38,485 nt of DNA from the IMG/VR virus record IMGVR_UViG_3300045741_000417, positions 1 through 38,485 of that record; one strand, written 5' to 3'. Under the pieces are notes generated by a model. The model did not search any database. It had not been told where the DNA came from and saw only the letters and a program-made list of their open reading frames with translations. The number at the start of each line of letters is the position of its first letter. Positions within the stretch are counted from its first letter, which is position 1. The translations under genes were made by a program, and so were the position numbers. Source of the DNA: a virus. Positions 1 through 38,485 of the stretch are shown piece by piece.

Positions 1-141
1 TCTAAAACGATTTCCACACAAATTTCCGCAAAAGTTAAAGCATATCCTGGCTTTCTTTTCGAATTGTTTTTGGGTGCAACTGTTACCGACGCGGGCGTGG
101 ACGCCGCTGGTACAGTAAGCGCGCTTACAAATGGACAAGGT
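1..141. repeat. Terminal direct repeat (circular overlap), left copy
   Basis: The first 141 bases match 38345-38485 at 138 of 141 positions. The three differences (127, 129 and 135 against 38471, 38473 and 38479) all lie in the last 15 bases. They change one codon from Thr to Ala and leave one Gly codon synonymous. Because the tail gene stays in frame across the joint, this is best read as the overlap of a circular or circularly permuted genome assembly with population variation. A true 141-bp physical terminal repeat is less likely. Confidence 0.9.
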
Positions 142-711
142 AGCACAATGTTTTCGGCCACAATCGGCGTGGCTTCTGTGTCGGTTATTCCGTCAACTGG
201 TGCGGCAAATTTAAAATTTGGTCGTTATGTAATTAAAGCGGTATCGGCCACCACATTCGATATTTATTTACTTTCTGATATTGATATTAAACGCGGAACG
301 GACGCGGTTTATCAAAATGATTCACTCAAAATCAGTGCAGCACCTCTTACTGTTACTTCGGGCGGAAACACCGACGACGCCACAACGGGCTTACGCTTTG
401 CGGGCGGCTCGGGAACTATCGCACTAGTAGCTGGTGACACAGCAATTTTTGACGTGTTCCCACCTTCTACAAAATCTAGTCGTATTTCTGTAGGCGGAAG
501 CGATACAAATTTACCAGCATTCGGCGCAGTTTTCTTAGCACAAAAGCGCGCAACTGGCGAAATGTTTGAAGTAGAGGCGTTTAACGTAGTAGCAAACGGC
601 TTGCCAATTTCAATGGCTGAGCTTGCCTACTCACAGCCAGAAATTAAAATGGTAGCGCTTTACGAATCAAGCGTAGATAAAGTTTTCGAAATTCGTCACA
701 TACTTCCATAA
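1..711 (+). CDS. Major tail tube protein, C-terminal part (gene continues from 38171)
   Basis: This is the downstream 236 codons of a gene that starts at ATG 38171. Joining 38344 to base 1 keeps the frame and gives a 294-residue protein. It lies between the tail terminator gene and the tail chaperone/tape measure genes, the standard place for the protein that polymerises into the siphovirus tail tube. The sequence is rich in small and beta-forming residues and has no catalytic motif. The middle (about residues 90-180 of the joined protein) looks like an added Ig-like domain, and the assembly variants fall at its start. The role rests mainly on gene order. A hairpin terminator follows the stop. 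Confidence 0.7.
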   Translation, partial: SKTISTQISAKVKAYPGFLFELFLGATVTDAGVDAAGTVSALTNGQGSTMFSATIGVASVSVIPSTGAANLKFGRYVIKAVSATTFDIYLLSDIDIKRGTDAVYQNDSLKISAAPLTVTSGGNTDDATTGLRFAGGSGTIALVAGDTAIFDVFPPSTKSSRISVGGSDTNLPAFGAVFLAQKRATGEMFEVEAFNVVANGLPISMAELAYSQPEIKMVALYESSVDKVFEIRHILP

Positions 712-739
712 TCTTGTCAGCACGGGACACTAGATAGGG

Positions 740-772
740 GCGTTAGCAGAAATGCTAGCGCTTTTATTTTTT
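740..772 (+). terminator. Rho-independent terminator after the tail tube gene
   Basis: Arms CGTTAGCA (741-748) and TGCTAGCG (753-760) form an 8-bp stem with one G-T pair around a GAAA loop, followed by a T-rich run CTTTTATTTTTT. It lies 29 bases after the tail tube stop and ends rightward transcription before the opposing small cassette. One arm contains the frequent GCTAGC hexamer. Confidence 0.75.
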
Positions 773-913
773 ATATGCCGCTACAGCATCCCTAATTAAT
801 TTGCTTACATTTCCGTCTGTATATTTGATTGATTTTGCTAGTAGCATTTGCAGTTCACTGGCTTTAAATTTAACAGCTACTAGCTGGCGTATAAGTTCCC
901 TTTGTGGCTTCAT
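764..913 (-). CDS. Ribbon-helix-helix-like small DNA-binding protein (49 aa)
   Basis: The 49-residue product begins MKPQRELIRQLVAVKF and ends in SKLIRDAVAAYKK. A short strand (LVAVKFKAS), then a helix (ELQMLLAKS), then a turn and a second helix (NVSKLIRDAV) matches the Arc/CopG ribbon-helix-helix pattern. Such proteins usually bind palindromic operators as dimers. It is the third gene of a reverse operon and its ATG overlaps the previous stop (GTATGA), which suggests translational coupling. A natural target is the palindrome at 1243-1259 over the operon's own promoter. The fold is assigned by eye, and the autoregulation is inference. Confidence 0.6.
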   Translation of the reverse strand: MKPQRELIRQLVAVKFKASELQMLLAKSIKYTDGNVSKLIRDAVAAYKK

Positions 914-1047
914 ACGCATCCGCCAATATAGATTGGTTCTACGTCTATGCTATCCCACCATTCTAATTTGCGGAATGCTTCTAAATATTGTTTGAAGCTT
1001 ATAGCGCCCAATTTTAATGCTAGCACCAGTTTATTTTCTTTATTCAT
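910..1047 (-). CDS. Hypothetical 45-aa protein of the reverse cassette
   Basis: The 45-residue product (MNKENKLVLALKLGAISFKQ..., ending in VEPIYIGGCV) is the middle gene of the three-gene reverse operon. Its ATG overlaps the stop of the zinc-ribbon gene and its stop overlaps the ATG of the ribbon-helix-helix gene. Both joints read GTATGA. Residues 5-33 look helical, with a WWD cluster. No family is recognised. Overlap at both ends and position inside a promoter-bearing operon are the main evidence that it is real. Confidence 0.5.
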   Translation of the reverse strand: MNKENKLVLALKLGAISFKQYLEAFRKLEWWDSIDVEPIYIGGCV

Positions 1048-1235
1048 ACTGTCCCCGTTTCGTCTTCGTCAAGTTTTAAACAATGTAAATTATGAGTGGC
1101 GTCGGTCGTTTGCCGCTCACAGCTATCGCAAACTCCGCGAACATTCTTATTTTCTATGGGTTTCTCGCTTTTAAGTAGCACGCGTTTTGTTTTTTTACAG
1201 CAAACGCATGTAAAATTGTAAATTCGTTTATTCAT
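1044..1235 (-). CDS. Small zinc-ribbon protein (63 aa)
   Basis: Two paired-cysteine knuckles are visible: CVCC near residues 10-13 (a further CxxC-type cluster) and CDSC near residues 36-39. With the basic stretch between them this fits a small zinc ribbon, a fold often used for nucleic-acid or protein binding. It is the first gene of the reverse cassette. A TATACT -10 box ends six bases before its ATG, and no Shine-Dalgarno sequence is present, so the transcript may be leaderless. Function is unknown; a host-takeover or regulatory role is possible. Confidence 0.6.
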   Translation of the reverse strand: MNKRIYNFTCVCCKKTKRVLLKSEKPIENKNVRGVCDSCERQTTDATHNLHCLKLDEDETGTV

Positions 1236-1241
1236 ATTTCT

Positions 1242-1269
1242 AGTATAACAAAGTTATACCAAAACGCAA
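1242..1269 (-). promoter_or_regulatory. Promoter with palindromic operator for the reverse cassette
   Basis: Read leftward, TTGCGT (1269-1264), a 16-base spacer and TATACT (1247-1242) form a sigma70-like promoter with a weak -35. The -10 ends six bases before the ATG at 1235. The perfect inverted repeat GTATAAC-AAA-GTTATAC (1243-1259) covers the -10 box, as a repressor operator would. The palindrome is seen directly; repression is inferred. Confidence 0.6.
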
Positions 1270-1371: not shown

Positions 1372-1785
1372 ATGAAAAAAATAGGCTTAAAAATGGACGA
1401 CCTGGCGCCACAACGGGCGATGTTCCACTTATCGACGCTGCCGGGAATTGATTTAACGTTAAAAGTTTTCTCCCTGCGCGAACGCATTTATGTAAATCGC
1501 CGCTGGCCGAATGGTGAAGTAGAAAAAGTTTTTTCCGAAGTGCAAATAGAAGGAATTTCAGAAATTTGCTACCTTCTTTTAGAAGACGCATCAAAAATAC
1601 GGTTTAAAGATTATAACGATTTTTGTGAGCATGTTGTAGATCAAGATAAAGACGTGCTAGCAATCGTTAAAGCTGTGTTACAAACAATCGGAATAGGGGA
1701 GCCGCAACTAGAAAAAATTTCCGAAGCAATTGGTGAAGCCCCAAAGCTAATGCCCAATCAGAAGAAAACGAAGCGAAAGAAATAG
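1372..1785 (+). CDS. Tail assembly chaperone G (zero-frame product, 137 aa)
   Basis: The gene lies directly before the tape measure gene, the fixed place of lambda G-type chaperones that coat the tape measure during tail assembly. The product is 137 residues with a mixed fold and a lysine-rich tail (NQKKTKRKK). Start at ATG 1372 is supported by CGGGG eight bases upstream. The heptamer CCCAAAG sits 39 bases before the stop in the correct zero-frame phase for a -1 slip, and an open -1 frame follows, so this is the G part of a G/GT pair. No sequence family was recognised, so the call rests on position and the frameshift layout. Confidence 0.75.
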   Translation: MKKIGLKMDDLAPQRAMFHLSTLPGIDLTLKVFSLRERIYVNRRWPNGEVEKVFSEVQIEGISEICYLLLEDASKIRFKDYNDFCEHVVDQDKDVLAIVKAVLQTIGIGEPQLEKISEAIGEAPKLMPNQKKTKRKK

Positions 1786-2090
1786 ATTGGGCGAAGGTCT
1801 ACGATGCTTTCGCTTCCGAGTATAAATATTCTATAGATCAATTTTTAAGCTTAACGGCTAGGCAATTACACGCCCTAAGCGCGGTTATACAAAGACGACA
1901 TGGCGAAGAGTTTTATCAAGAATTAGTTATAGCTCTAACAAGCCGCGGCGCCCGCAAAATTCCTACTATAGAAGAAATACTGGGTTCCGATTATGCTGAA
2001 AATAAGGTAAGTTTTAGTAAAGAACAAGACGAAAAGCTAGAGGCTTACGCAAAACGACAGCTAGAAAAGAGTAAACTTGGCCGACAATGA
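1372..2090 (+). CDS. Tail assembly chaperone GT (-1 frameshift fusion, about 239 aa)
   Basis: Reading 1372-1746 in frame zero and then slipping back one base gives 125 codons of G plus 114 codons (1746-2087), ending at TGA 2088-2090. The -1 frame is closed upstream by TGA at 1734-1736, so the shift must fall between 1737 and 1785, and CCCAAAG is the only canonical X-XXY-YYZ heptamer there. The T part includes EIDWAKVYDAFASEYKYSID and an acidic, helical C terminus. It overlaps the tape measure start by 14 bases. In lambda the longer product binds the tape measure and the tube protein; the same role is inferred here. Confidence 0.75.
1740..1746 (+). other. Programmed -1 ribosomal frameshift site CCCAAAG
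   Basis: Zero-frame codons here are GCC CCA AAG, giving the heptamer C-CCA-AAG. After slippage the tRNAs re-pair with CCC and AAA. The heptamer is the only canonical one in the 49-base window where the shift has to happen. No strong downstream pseudoknot was evident by eye. Confidence 0.75.
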
Positions 2091-4332
2091 ACTGCTCATA
2101 AAAATTAATGCGGACACGTCGAACGCTGAAAAAAAGTTTGATTCAATAAAGAAACAAACTGAAAGTTTAAGCGACGCTTTGAAAGAAGTTTCAAAGGTAT
2201 CTGCTATTGCCTTCGCCACATTAACGGCTGAAATTGGTTTTTCTATAGCGGCTTACAAAGAGGCGGAGTCGGCAAGTAATTCTTTAACCGCTGCTTTGCA
2301 GTCACAAGGAATTTTTACAGTTGAGCTACGTGATAAATATAAAGGCTATGCCGATGAAATTGAACGCGCCACAGGCATTGATAACGACGCGATTATAGCG
2401 GCGCAAGCATTGGCGCAAAGACATATCGGGCAAATAGAAATTACCGAACGTTTAACAAAAGCAATTGTCGATTTTTCAGTAGCGCAAAAAGTAGATTTAA
2501 ATGAAGCAAGTAATTTAATTTCAAAGTCAATCGGTTCTCAAGTAAATGTGCTAGCGCGCTATGGTTTACAGCTTAATGATACCGCGACGCGTTCCGAACG
2601 TTACGCAAAAGTTTTACAATTTTTAGAAGGTAATTATGGAAAATCTGCGGACGCCGCGAATCAGGGTCTAGGTTCTTTACACGCGCTTGCGACAGCGTTC
2701 GGAGATTTACAAGAAGAAATTGGCGCGCGCTTCGCACCCGCTGTTTCCGCAGGCGCCGCAGCACTTACAAAAGTAATTAATGCGGCAAAAGACAATAAAG
2801 AACTTTTGAATTTTGGCGTGGCTTTAATTACAGCCGCAGGTGCCGTGGCTGGTTTAATTACTGGCGCTACATTACTGGCGCAAGCATTAATCACGGTTAG
2901 AGCCGCCGCAATCGCCGCCGGAATTGCTATCACGGGCACGCGCTTTGCTTTACAAGCGCTTTTAACCGCGACAGTAATCGGAGCAGTAATTGTGGCGCTT
3001 ACCGAATTAGCAATACATTGGAATACAGTTTTTCCAGCTATGGAAGCTACATTTAGAGCCTTCGCTAAGCATGTTTCCGACATTGCTGGCGGTTTAGCTG
3101 ATATTCTACAAGGAATATTTTTAGGGTTTCATCCCGAAAAAGTACAGGCTGGTTTTGCAAAACTTAAAGAAGTTTTTTCTAAAGGTTATGGGGAAATTCA
3201 GGACGATTTAAAAGCGAATCAAAAAAAGAATGATGAAATACAAAATGCGGGGCAGGCAGAAACTAGTGCTATTAATGAAAAGCAGCGTGTTGAGGAAGAA
3301 AATCGTCGTAAAACTGCGCAAGCCGCAAAGCTTTCCGCTTTAAAAGCCGAAGTAGATTTAGAAAATCAAACTGTAATTGATTCAAAACAAAAAGAAGCGC
3401 AAATAACGGAAGCCATTGCGCAAAATAAAAATGCAAATGAACTAGCGCTATTACAACAAAAATTAGAGCAGCAAAAGGCAATTACCGCGCAGGCCGAACA
3501 AGACCAATTAGATAGCCGCGCCGAATTCGCCGCCGCACAGGATGCAACGGACGCCGATTTGGCTGAGCAGCGCCTAGCAAATACAGAAATTTTAAATGCT
3601 CAGCAAATTCAAGCCGCCGAAAATCTTGCACAAAGTGAACTACAAATTTCGCAGAAAATTGCGAATGATAAATTAACAGAAGAAATTAAAGCGCATAATT
3701 TACTTATTGAGGAAAGAAAGCGCTACGGTATTGCTGTAGCCACGATTGATAAAGCGCTGCATAGTACAGAAATAGAAGGCGCAAAAAGTGTAAGTGGGGA
3801 ACTTGTAGCTTTGGCGCAATCAAAACAATCGACACTTAAAGCAATTGGTAAAGCTGCCTCAATTGCACAAATTACAATTGCTACGGCTGAATCGGCTGTG
3901 AATATTGCAAAAAGTGTTATCGCTGTGGTACCGTTTCCCTTTGCTATTCCCATCGCGGGCGCACTGGCCGCCGCGCGTATCGCATTCGGAGCAGAACAAA
4001 TTGCAAACGTAACAGCCGCCGCAAGTGGTGCATTGGTAGGCGGTTCGGGCAACGGCGACACACAGCCATTTTTATTAGAGCCGGGTGAATTAGTTGCACC
4101 GAAAAAGAATTTTGAAGAAGTAGTAGGCGCCGTAAATGCTTCACGAAATAATCGGGACGACGATATAGTAAATTTACTTACTTCGCTTAATGAAAAAAAT
4201 ACAGCGGGCGGTAGTACTATTGTGGTACAAGGCGACGTAATGGCTGAAAGCAGTTATATTGATAAACTTGTTACGCATATTTCGGATGCTTTAGAATTTA
4301 GAAATGCTAAACTTTTTGGGGTTAATACATAA
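2077..4332 (+). CDS. Tail tape measure protein (751 aa)
   Basis: This is one of the longest genes of the tail module and follows the G/GT chaperones. Residues 1-60 are charged and helical. A long hydrophobic, alanine-rich stretch at about 240-310 would form two or three membrane segments, typical of tape measures that help pore formation. Residues about 390-550 are a coiled coil rich in Glu, Gln, Ala and Lys, and the C terminus has a glycine-rich segment. At roughly 0.15 nm per residue the tail would be near 110 nm. The best start is TTG 2077, inside the GT gene with a weak AAGAG site upstream. The stop overlaps the next ATG (TAATG). Confidence 0.9.
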   Translation: MADNELLIKINADTSNAEKKFDSIKKQTESLSDALKEVSKVSAIAFATLTAEIGFSIAAYKEAESASNSLTAALQSQGIFTVELRDKYKGYADEIERATGIDNDAIIAAQALAQRHIGQIEITERLTKAIVDFSVAQKVDLNEASNLISKSIGSQVNVLARYGLQLNDTATRSERYAKVLQFLEGNYGKSADAANQGLGSLHALATAFGDLQEEIGARFAPAVSAGAAALTKVINAAKDNKELLNFGVALITAAGAVAGLITGATLLAQALITVRAAAIAAGIAITGTRFALQALLTATVIGAVIVALTELAIHWNTVFPAMEATFRAFAKHVSDIAGGLADILQGIFLGFHPEKVQAGFAKLKEVFSKGYGEIQDDLKANQKKNDEIQNAGQAETSAINEKQRVEEENRRKTAQAAKLSALKAEVDLENQTVIDSKQKEAQITEAIAQNKNANELALLQQKLEQQKAITAQAEQDQLDSRAEFAAAQDATDADLAEQRLANTEILNAQQIQAAENLAQSELQISQKIANDKLTEEIKAHNLLIEERKRYGIAVATIDKALHSTEIEGAKSVSGELVALAQSKQSTLKAIGKAASIAQITIATAESAVNIAKSVIAVVPFPFAIPIAGALAAARIAFGAEQIANVTAAASGALVGGSGNGDTQPFLLEPGELVAPKKNFEEVVGAVNASRNNRDDDIVNLLTSLNEKNTAGGSTIVVQGDVMAESSYIDKLVTHISDALEFRNAKLFGVNT

Positions 4333-25707: not shown

Positions 25708-26084
25708 TGTCATACCTTGATTATTTAAGCGACCCAAAAGCATACGCCGATTTAGCTGAAAGAAAAATGTTTCTTAATAAACTCATGCTAGCAATGAAAG
25801 CAAAAAATATTGGTGAAGGTGTAAATATTTTTCAATATTTAAACATGATGCAAAAGATTAAAAACTGGGCTGTTACAATTCCTAATGGCTACCCATACGC
25901 GGGGACAGTTTACACGATTAATCTACTCGATTGCTGCTTTACAGGTGATATTGAATCGCTAGCAAAGGCACTTGATTGGGGGCGTTCTAACTGCGACGAT
26001 ATGTCTCAATCATACCATTTCTTAAGTGAAGCACGACTCGATTGGATATTAAGCGAATTAAAAGCTTATTTGGGGTGGGCATGA
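25707..26084 (+). CDS. Hypothetical fibre-cassette protein (125 aa)
   Basis: It starts at a TAATG overlap with the fibre stop and ends in an ATGA overlap with the next gene. The product is mostly helical with aromatic residues and a CDDMSQSYHFLSEARLDWILSEL tail. Position right after a fibre gene suggests a fibre chaperone or attachment factor, which is inference. No family was recognised. Confidence 0.45.
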   Translation: MSYLDYLSDPKAYADLAERKMFLNKLMLAMKAKNIGEGVNIFQYLNMMQKIKNWAVTIPNGYPYAGTVYTINLLDCCFTGDIESLAKALDWGRSNCDDMSQSYHFLSEARLDWILSELKAYLGWA

Positions 26085-26581
26085 TTTTTTATTGGGTCAA
26101 AAATAATAAAATTGGCTCAAAATTAATCAGGTGGGGAACAAGCGGTAAAGCGTCGCACTTCGCTGTAGAGTTTGATAAAAAAGTTATTCTCGAATCGACG
26201 ATGCTCAGTGGCGTTCGCCTTAACACAAGTTTTGAATTTAAAAAGCATAATGATATTGTTTACAGTTTAGAAATTACTTGTAGCTTGGAGCAAGAGGAAG
26301 AAATTTATCAGGCGATGATTAAGGGTATTGTTGACAAATATCGCTATGACTATGCGGCAATTCTTTACTTCACCTATCGGGTGTTTTTAAAAAAGATTTT
26401 CAATAAGCCAATACCGGAAGAAAATAAATATGACGATGTACACGCCTACATGTGCATAGAAATTGCAAAGGAATTTCCCGATTTTGTTTTTGGTAACGCG
26501 AAAAAACCAAAGAGCCTGGCCATGTTTTCACCCGACAATTTGTATTGGTTACTTTTTATTGGCAGGCAAAGCTTGACATAA
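26081..26581 (+). CDS. Permuted papain-fold (NlpC/P60- or YiiX-like) protein (166 aa)
   Basis: ATG 26081 overlaps the previous TGA and follows GGGGTGG. H26 in ASHFAVEF near the N terminus, and C125 in HAYMCIEIAKEF near the C terminus, fit the circularly permuted NlpC/P60 (YiiX/LRAT-like) arrangement, where His precedes the catalytic Cys. Known members cut amide or ester bonds, for instance in peptidoglycan or lipids. Linked to a fibre gene, it could act on the host envelope. The fold call is by motif only. Alternative: an inactive relative. Confidence 0.55.
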   Translation: MIFYWVKNNKIGSKLIRWGTSGKASHFAVEFDKKVILESTMLSGVRLNTSFEFKKHNDIVYSLEITCSLEQEEEIYQAMIKGIVDKYRYDYAAILYFTYRVFLKKIFNKPIPEENKYDDVHAYMCIEIAKEFPDFVFGNAKKPKSLAMFSPDNLYWLLFIGRQSLT

Positions 26582-34051: not shown

Positions 34052-35044
34052 ATGCGTTCGGACTTCTTAGGCACTATTAAATTACAAGATGGCACTACGC
34101 CCGGTCATGACCGTTCGCCTATCGTACAGGTTTTGCGTGTAACAAAATTTGAACACCCGACTTACGGAACCGTGGAAATAACGCCACAAATTTTGCAGCA
34201 ATTTAAAGAAAACTTTGAAAAGAACGTTAGACGCCAACAAATTCCTATTGATTACTTTCACGATAATGAAGGTGTTGCCGCGGGCTGGATAAAAGAGTTA
34301 TTTTTTTCGGACAGTTCTAACCAAGAATTATGGGCGCGTGTAGATTGGACAAAAAACGCGCTGCAAAAACTTAATGAAAAAGAATTAAAATATTTTTCGC
34401 CTGAATTTGCTTTTAAGTGGACAGACCCGGAAACTCAGGTAAGTTATGAAAATGTACTGTTCGGCGGCGGCTTAACGAATCGACCACAAGTTAAGGATAT
34501 GGCACCGATAGTTTTGAAAGAATCTAAGGGGGAAATTTTAATGGACGCAAAAGTAAAAGAATTAGAAGCGCAAGTAAAAACACTTAACGAACAAGTGCAA
34601 CAATACCAAGCCGCGGCACCAGTAGCCCAGGCCGATATGCAATCGAAAGACGCAAAAATCGTTGAGCTAGAAAAGAAAATTGCTGACCTTCAAGCGCAAT
34701 GCGACGCCATGAAGTCACAAAATACGCAAATGATGGCTGATAATAATGCGATGAAAGATAAAATCGCATGCAGCGAAAAAGAAAAAGAATTTAATATCCT
34801 TTTAACAGAAGGCAAAGCATGCGCCGCGCAGAAAGATGCTTTCATTAAAGGCGATATGGCCGAGTTCATTAAGAATGCCGCAAAAGTAAATCTTGCTGAA
34901 AAAGGCAATGGCGAAGGTAATGGAACAAAAGGCGCAAAAGACGAAGACGCTGAAATTTTAGAGTTAGCTGAAAAAATGGTAAAGGATGAAAAAATTAAAC
35001 TTCCGGACGCCATTTCTAAAGTTATGAAGGCACGCAAGAAATAA
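34052..35044 (+). CDS. Mu gpI-like prohead protease with C-terminal scaffold (330 aa)
   Basis: The N-terminal 160 residues carry IPIDYFHDNEGVAAGWIKEL, LWARVDWTKNALQKLNEKELKYFSPEF and GGLTNRPQVKDMAP, the signature of Mu protein I-type proteases. The His in DYFHD and Ser in FSPEF are candidate catalytic residues. Residues 164-245 form a coiled-coil scaffold, and the C terminus is charged and helical. An in-frame ATG with its own ribosome site at 34541 would make the scaffold alone. The protease matures the prohead by cutting the scaffold. Confidence 0.88.
   Translation: MRSDFLGTIKLQDGTTPGHDRSPIVQVLRVTKFEHPTYGTVEITPQILQQFKENFEKNVRRQQIPIDYFHDNEGVAAGWIKELFFSDSSNQELWARVDWTKNALQKLNEKELKYFSPEFAFKWTDPETQVSYENVLFGGGLTNRPQVKDMAPIVLKESKGEILMDAKVKELEAQVKTLNEQVQQYQAAAPVAQADMQSKDAKIVELEKKIADLQAQCDAMKSQNTQMMADNNAMKDKIACSEKEKEFNILLTEGKACAAQKDAFIKGDMAEFIKNAAKVNLAEKGNGEGNGTKGAKDEDAEILELAEKMVKDEKIKLPDAISKVMKARKK
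34541..35044 (+). CDS. Nested scaffold protein (internal start, 167 aa)
   Basis: ATG 34541 is codon 164 of the protease gene and is preceded by AAGGGGGAAATTTTA, matching the genome's own GGGGAAT-type ribosome sites better than the protease start does. The product begins MDAKVKELEAQVKTLNEQVQ, a coiled coil. Mu gpZ and lambda Nu3 are known examples of a scaffold made from an internal start in the protease gene. Use of this start is predicted from sequence only. Confidence 0.7.
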   Translation: MDAKVKELEAQVKTLNEQVQQYQAAAPVAQADMQSKDAKIVELEKKIADLQAQCDAMKSQNTQMMADNNAMKDKIACSEKEKEFNILLTEGKACAAQKDAFIKGDMAEFIKNAAKVNLAEKGNGEGNGTKGAKDEDAEILELAEKMVKDEKIKLPDAISKVMKARKK

Positions 35045-38170: not shown

Positions 38171-38485
38171 ATGTCACTTTCTCAAGATAGAATTATTTTT
38201 GGTATTCATTCTTTCACACCATATCGACGCAGCGACAAACTGCCCTATGGAATTTTAAAGGTTATCGGGTCTTCCGACATTGCGCTTACCTCTGAGCAAG
38301 AATTGCTTTACGCGGGTTCTAACAAGTTCCCATGGGCGGCTGAATCTAAAACGATTTCCACACAAATTTCCGCAAAAGTTAAAGCATATCCTGGCTTTCT
38401 TTTCGAATTGTTTTTGGGTGCAACTGTTACCGACGCGGGCGTGGACGCCGCTGGTACAGTAAGCGCGCTTGCGAATGGCCAAGGT
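38171..38485 (+). CDS. Major tail tube protein, N-terminal part (continues at base 1)
   Basis: AGGGGGAATTTAAAA, a very strong site, precedes ATG 38171. The product begins MSLSQDRIIFGIHSFTPYRR and is open to the end of the window. Codon 59 (38345) equals base 1, so the gene continues there to the stop at 709-711. A high-copy tube protein fits the strong ribosome site. The last 141 bases are the repeated overlap and carry the alternative allele (GCG and GGC codons). Confidence 0.7.
   Translation, partial: MSLSQDRIIFGIHSFTPYRRSDKLPYGILKVIGSSDIALTSEQELLYAGSNKFPWAAESKTISTQISAKVKAYPGFLFELFLGATVTDAGVDAAGTVSALANGQG
38345..38485. repeat. Terminal direct repeat (circular overlap), right copy
   Basis: Matches 1-141 with three mismatches at 38471, 38473 and 38479. 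Together with the uninterrupted tail gene this shows that the window is circular. Confidence 0.9.

Follow-up and report, generated by a model that had tools for sequence, protein, structure and literature searches.

Phage morons occur in tail regions, HK97 gp15 being an example. Closer in architecture to the locus described here are the acr-aca operons, whose regulators (Aca1-Aca10) are helix-turn-helix proteins, whose core promoters carry inverted repeats and for which auto-shut-off has been proposed (PMC9410906). The Fc02 exclusion genes lie on opposite strands in the lysogeny region (PMC9936078) and were set aside as a counterpart on account of that location and of a layout that is not homologous. 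No report of a ribbon-helix-helix (RHH) gene at the tail-tube/chaperone site was found in the literature.

The window (the whole 38,485-nucleotide stretch of DNA that was analysed) comes from an uncultured virus of bacteria, whose relatives form a large uncultured siphophage group. Its genome is probably complete (terminally redundant or circular), since the contig ends are nearly identical: positions 1-141 and 38345-38485 overlap with 138/141 bases the same and 3 mismatches. Large terminase, portal, protease, major capsid and replication genes were found on the contig. A protein like PHROG 1128 (enoyl-CoA hydratase-like, moron/AMG class) is encoded at 26042-26581, directly before the primase gene. 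The features of the tail region are as follows.

1..711, plus strand: 3' part of the tail tube gene, whose ATG lies near 38171, within the terminal redundancy on the right.
732..769, plus strand: forward terminator-like hairpin with a T-run, downstream of the tail tube gene; most close relatives have a hairpin in this position.
764..913, minus strand: third gene of the cassette, 49 aa, RHH (NikA-like), proposed autorepressor, with orthologues at the same site and support from fold and profiles.
910..1047, minus strand: second gene, 45 aa, cargo, overlapping each neighbouring gene by 4 bases; codon usage native-like, no family match.
1044..1235, minus strand: first gene, 63 aa, cysteine-bearing (CVCC...CDSC), cargo, an open reading frame (ORF) with no family match.
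1241..1268, minus strand: putative leftward core promoter TTGCGT-16-TATACT, 8/12 consensus matches, with the operator in its spacer and over its -10.
1243..1259, no strand assigned: operator candidate GTATAAC-AAA-GTTATAC, an exact 7-3-7 palindrome, single copy in the 38.5-kb genome.
1372..1785, plus strand: tail assembly chaperone gene, divergent neighbour of the cassette, with a -1-frame open extension to 2090.
2077-4332, after the chaperone gene: tape measure gene (PHROG 3336, E=3.2e-5).

The tail tube gene, which had no PHROG or Pfam match, was identified from its position and its relatives, and the chaperone gene from its position and its -1-frame extension. Siphophages use G/GT programmed frameshifts, and the extension (window 1372-2090), near AGAAGAAAACG, resembles these. 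No chaperone relatives were retrieved from viral contigs by the pattern method.

The cassette is best read, with a probability of about 0.62, as a leftward operon under its own RHH autorepressor, with swappable cargo. A sequence-only reading had described reverse-oriented genes of 63, 45 and 49 residues with two GTATGA overlaps, and the ORF coordinates agree. At both junctions (GTATGA) stop and start share 4 bases (ATGA); an alternative in-frame ATG at 919 would lengthen the 49-residue protein to 51. A chain of three ATG ORFs, each of at least 45 aa and with overlaps of 1-4 bases, arose in 0/3000 dinucleotide shuffles of the region. Codon usage was phage-like for the 45- and 49-residue ORFs and neutral for the 63-residue ORF, and rival ORFs on the opposite strand scored clearly worse. 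The 63-residue gene is possibly leaderless, because its start lies only 5 bases past the putative -10.

The 49-residue protein is predicted to be a NikA-like RHH protein from family profiles, an AlphaFold model and Foldseek, so that the fold suspected earlier for this repressor-like protein is supported. AF2 with a 26-sequence family alignment gave an extended N-terminus and helices at 18-31 and 36-46 (pLDDT 87) for the monomer, the N-terminal strand of RHH proteins being formed only in the dimer. The top Foldseek matches were RHH folds (NikR, ArtA, Arc and MazE-mt1), with E-values that are weak for so short a chain. Pfam NikA-like was matched by 19/26 family members (best 1.1e-6); the window protein alone matched only Pfam RHH_1, at E=0.02, below the cut-off. 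Its best PDB sequence match was NikA (2ba3, E=0.02), and three family members matched TacA1 weakly.

For the comparison with relatives, a search with the tail tube protein gave seven viral loci, and a profile of it raised the number to 56. With the window included, the 57 loci formed 42 tail-tube clusters at 90% identity, 40 of them long enough to judge. An iterated RHH profile placed a minus-strand RHH gene between tail tube and chaperone in 40/57 loci (window included), and at this junction in 31 of the 40 judgeable clusters, about three quarters. Apart from the clusters with cargo described below, RHH is in most of these the sole leftward gene and diverges from the chaperone gene. Among the nine clusters without RHH, the chaperone gene directly follows the tail tube gene in five (L015, L029, L033, L034 and L060), rightward ORFs occupy the junction in two (L024 and L040), and the junction layout is ambiguous in the last two (L030 and L052). 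In L024/L026 and L040/L041, rightward ORFs over 1.2-1.5 kb replace RHH, which marks the junction as a general insertion point. When ENLN-type RHH proteins were used for a reverse search, 18 loci came up, of which 16, among them the newly found contig L077, have the gene at the tail site. The two exceptions are RHH relatives elsewhere, in L081 (3001-3099) and L082 (1855-1956), the L081 copy adjoining a ParB-like nuclease/methylase-type gene.

RHH pairs showed pN/pS values of 0.08-0.24, that is, purifying selection. Distances between RHH proteins followed those between tail tube proteins (Mantel r 0.61; 0/5000 permutations as high). The conserved site, the low pN/pS and the co-divergence with the tail tube argue that RHH belongs to the tail module by vertical inheritance and was not inserted there recently. 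The cassette had been called an accessory moron unit, and its presence or absence in related phages had been proposed as a check. This description suits the 63- and 45-residue genes, the small genes other than RHH being variable; it does not suit the RHH gene, which is kept in 31/40 clusters and inherited vertically.

About 8 of the 31 RHH clusters, the window included, carry variable small genes in the RHH operon. The window has two such genes, L009 has cysteine-rich and other small proteins, L043 has one gene, L010 and L004 encode small proteins, and L011, L014 and L012/L056 encode lipoprotein-like proteins, those of L011 and L014 being related (56% identity). The lipoprotein-like genes head the leftward operon, and their products have a signal, a SAC lipobox and a Ser/Gly-rich linker. 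Judged by these sequences, the lipoproteins are candidates for superinfection exclusion. Cargo proteins checked against Pfam, PADLOC and PHROGs gave no convincing family match, and the pattern method found no relatives of the 63-residue protein in viral contigs. A zinc ribbon had been suggested for this protein; that assignment is a guess from the CVCC...CDSC motif, with no family match and a poor, low-confidence single-sequence model. The cargo is exchangeable, and its most likely targets are the host or competing phages.

The palindrome described earlier over the -10 box is exact at 1243-1259. By itself it is not significant, 297/2000 shuffles of the AT-rich intergenic stretch containing one of that size; it is credible because its half-sites recur in relatives. 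The half-site GTATnAC or its complement occurs in two copies beside the first cassette gene in 5/6 close relatives (window counted), and L009 is without a strict half-site. Ten GTATnAC sites were seen in 480 bp against 0.17 expected from the rest of the loci (P about 5e-15), a figure to be read with the fact that these loci were also the source of the motif, a bias that the permutation control (all 180 same-letter arrangements, next best with 4 hits) offsets only partly. The arrangement of the pairs varies: inverted at 10, 13, 14 and 33 bp, and direct at 23 bp.

In the ENLN subgroup, no part of the intergenic region is better conserved than the palindrome TTGTGATnACAA with the A-tract after it, which occurs once in most contigs, one mismatch allowed. 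It lies 57-63 bp from the chaperone start and 17-199 bp from the RHH start, and leftward -10-like sequences directly follow it in the aligned ENLN sequences. An operator inside the leftward promoter would thus fit both subgroups; the constant distance from the chaperone gene would also permit rightward regulation. A second palindrome, GTATAAC-N7-GTTATAC, was seen in L064 at 2046-2066 (L011 contig 34545-34565), immediately ahead of a rightward terminator-like hairpin, with a 75-residue ORF and a large ORF downstream. It may be a further target of RHH or belong to a short RNA gene.

By consensus the leftward promoter is weak and was missed by a 9-of-12 scan. A TTGNNT-16/18-(-10) layout is readable in most close relatives with mediocre promoter matches (7-9 of 12), and the promoter that had been proposed for the cassette is supported as promoter-like, though with only 8/12 matches. 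The forward terminator upstream, likewise described before, is present as the 732-769 hairpin and has a similar counterpart in most close relatives; hairpins of such stringency are also common in shuffles. No good leftward terminator was found, the 732-769 hairpin facing rightward.

The half-sites common to relatives also support the self-regulation that had been proposed: the RHH protein may bind its operator at the promoter half-sites and probably switches its own operon off. Because the operator would still be unoccupied when the phage DNA enters, the sigma-70-like promoter (about 1241-1268) is presumed to be active at that time. The leftward transcript would then yield the 63- and 45-residue cargo together with the RHH protein in an early burst. 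RHH dimers would bind the half-sites in the spacer and the -10 (1243-1259) and shut the promoter, which would keep antisense transcription from reaching the tail tube gene once rightward late expression sets in. The RHH gene and its operator would form an old, vertically inherited core with exchangeable cargo. In this model, whose sequence of unrepressed promoter, burst and self-repression follows published acr-aca logic, we infer DNA binding, repression, early timing and cargo function.

An RHH protein that solely regulated cargo would be purposeless in most relatives, where it stands alone, and this speaks against the autorepressor reading. The leading alternative is that RHH mainly controls the divergent chaperone/tape-measure promoter, in timing or in amount relative to the tail tube, with autoregulation and cargo secondary. 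It is possible, if on the unlikely side. It would account for the many lone RHH genes divergent from the chaperone gene, for the near-constant distance of the ENLN palindrome from the chaperone start beside its variable distance from the RHH start, for the few or no further operator copies in ENLN contigs and for the co-divergence of RHH with the tail module; moreover, with a forward terminator after the tail tube gene in many loci, downstream genes may need their own promoter. The window palindrome, however, lies 113-129 bp from the chaperone start yet overlaps the leftward -10, in five clusters RHH is missing and the chaperone gene follows the tail tube gene immediately, and a constraint acting solely on the forward promoter could explain the fixed spacing. 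More doubtful is a combined proposal, in which a conserved backward RHH switch would order transcription so that leftward cargo precedes the divergent chaperone/tape-measure genes, and the leftward promoter would be a landing site for changing, undescribed anti-host or superinfection-exclusion proteins.

The autorepressor reading includes, as a subset, an anti-CRISPR operon with RHH in the Aca role. Variable small genes, a conserved DNA-binding gene and an inverted repeat in the core promoter reproduce the acr-aca layout (PMC9410906), but all ten Aca families in that work are helix-turn-helix and no cargo was tied to a known Acr (the libraries compared contained no dedicated Acr set), which makes this narrower version improbable. 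RHH antitoxins are common, and the weak TacA1 matches of three family members would suit a toxin-antitoxin pair with RHH as antitoxin. This was nevertheless rejected as very improbable: no toxin family was found among the partners, which are unrelated between relatives and absent in most, so that there is no stable pairing. The earlier suggestion of a toxin-antitoxin or immunity system is accordingly unsupported, RHH being alone in most relatives. Searches of GTDB (about 85,000 bacterial and archaeal genomes) with the tail tube and RHH proteins returned nothing, which argues against a prophage-immunity role within the reach of the pattern method, that is, moderately close relatives only. Least credible of all is that the ORFs are spurious and the leftward strand silent; the neutral codon usage and missing relatives of the 63-residue ORF would agree with it, against the conservation and low pN/pS of RHH and an ORF chain that no shuffle reproduced.

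Across very divergent phages a regulator is maintained at a single tail-gene junction and faces the opposite way to the late operon, which suggests that tail expression involves a control step absent from textbook phages. The turnover of small genes in its operon also makes RHH a useful bait in guilt-by-association searches for new host-acting phage proteins. If the reading as switch and landing site holds, the locus would parallel the acr-aca principle with an RHH protein and help to locate counter-defence genes in genomes. A comparison of 50,697 named phages with tail tubes from three subgroups and with two RHH proteins revealed no relative of the site in a cultured phage.

With NikA-like (PF21983) and Arc-MetJ-CopG RHH proteins, the 49-residue protein has in common the sequence profile and the predicted helix-helix fold. 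NikA acts in relaxosomes, whereas the RHH proteins here are stand-alone and phage-encoded; NikA/MobC relaxosome accessory proteins are relaxase-linked, and no relaxase was found among the window proteins scanned (a set that covered the small ORFs in part). As in acr-aca operons, variable small cargo is combined with a conserved small protein, here predicted to bind DNA, at the operon end or close to it and with an inverted repeat in the core promoter, here 1243-1259 over the putative -10 together with the half-sites of relatives. Unlike in acr-aca operons, the regulator is RHH in place of helix-turn-helix and often alone, the unit lies on the reverse strand in the tail module, and no prophage or cellular homologue was found. 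Since the regulator is predicted to be RHH and not helix-turn-helix, it is not classed as an Aca. Lipoprotein genes, which superinfection-exclusion loci may carry, occur in the cassettes of some relatives. Tail-region morons such as HK97 gp15 share the form of an autonomous small unit at a tail-gene junction, with cargo present or absent between relatives; in contrast to morons, the regulator of this cassette is conserved and vertically inherited rather than sporadic, and the unit reads against the late operon.
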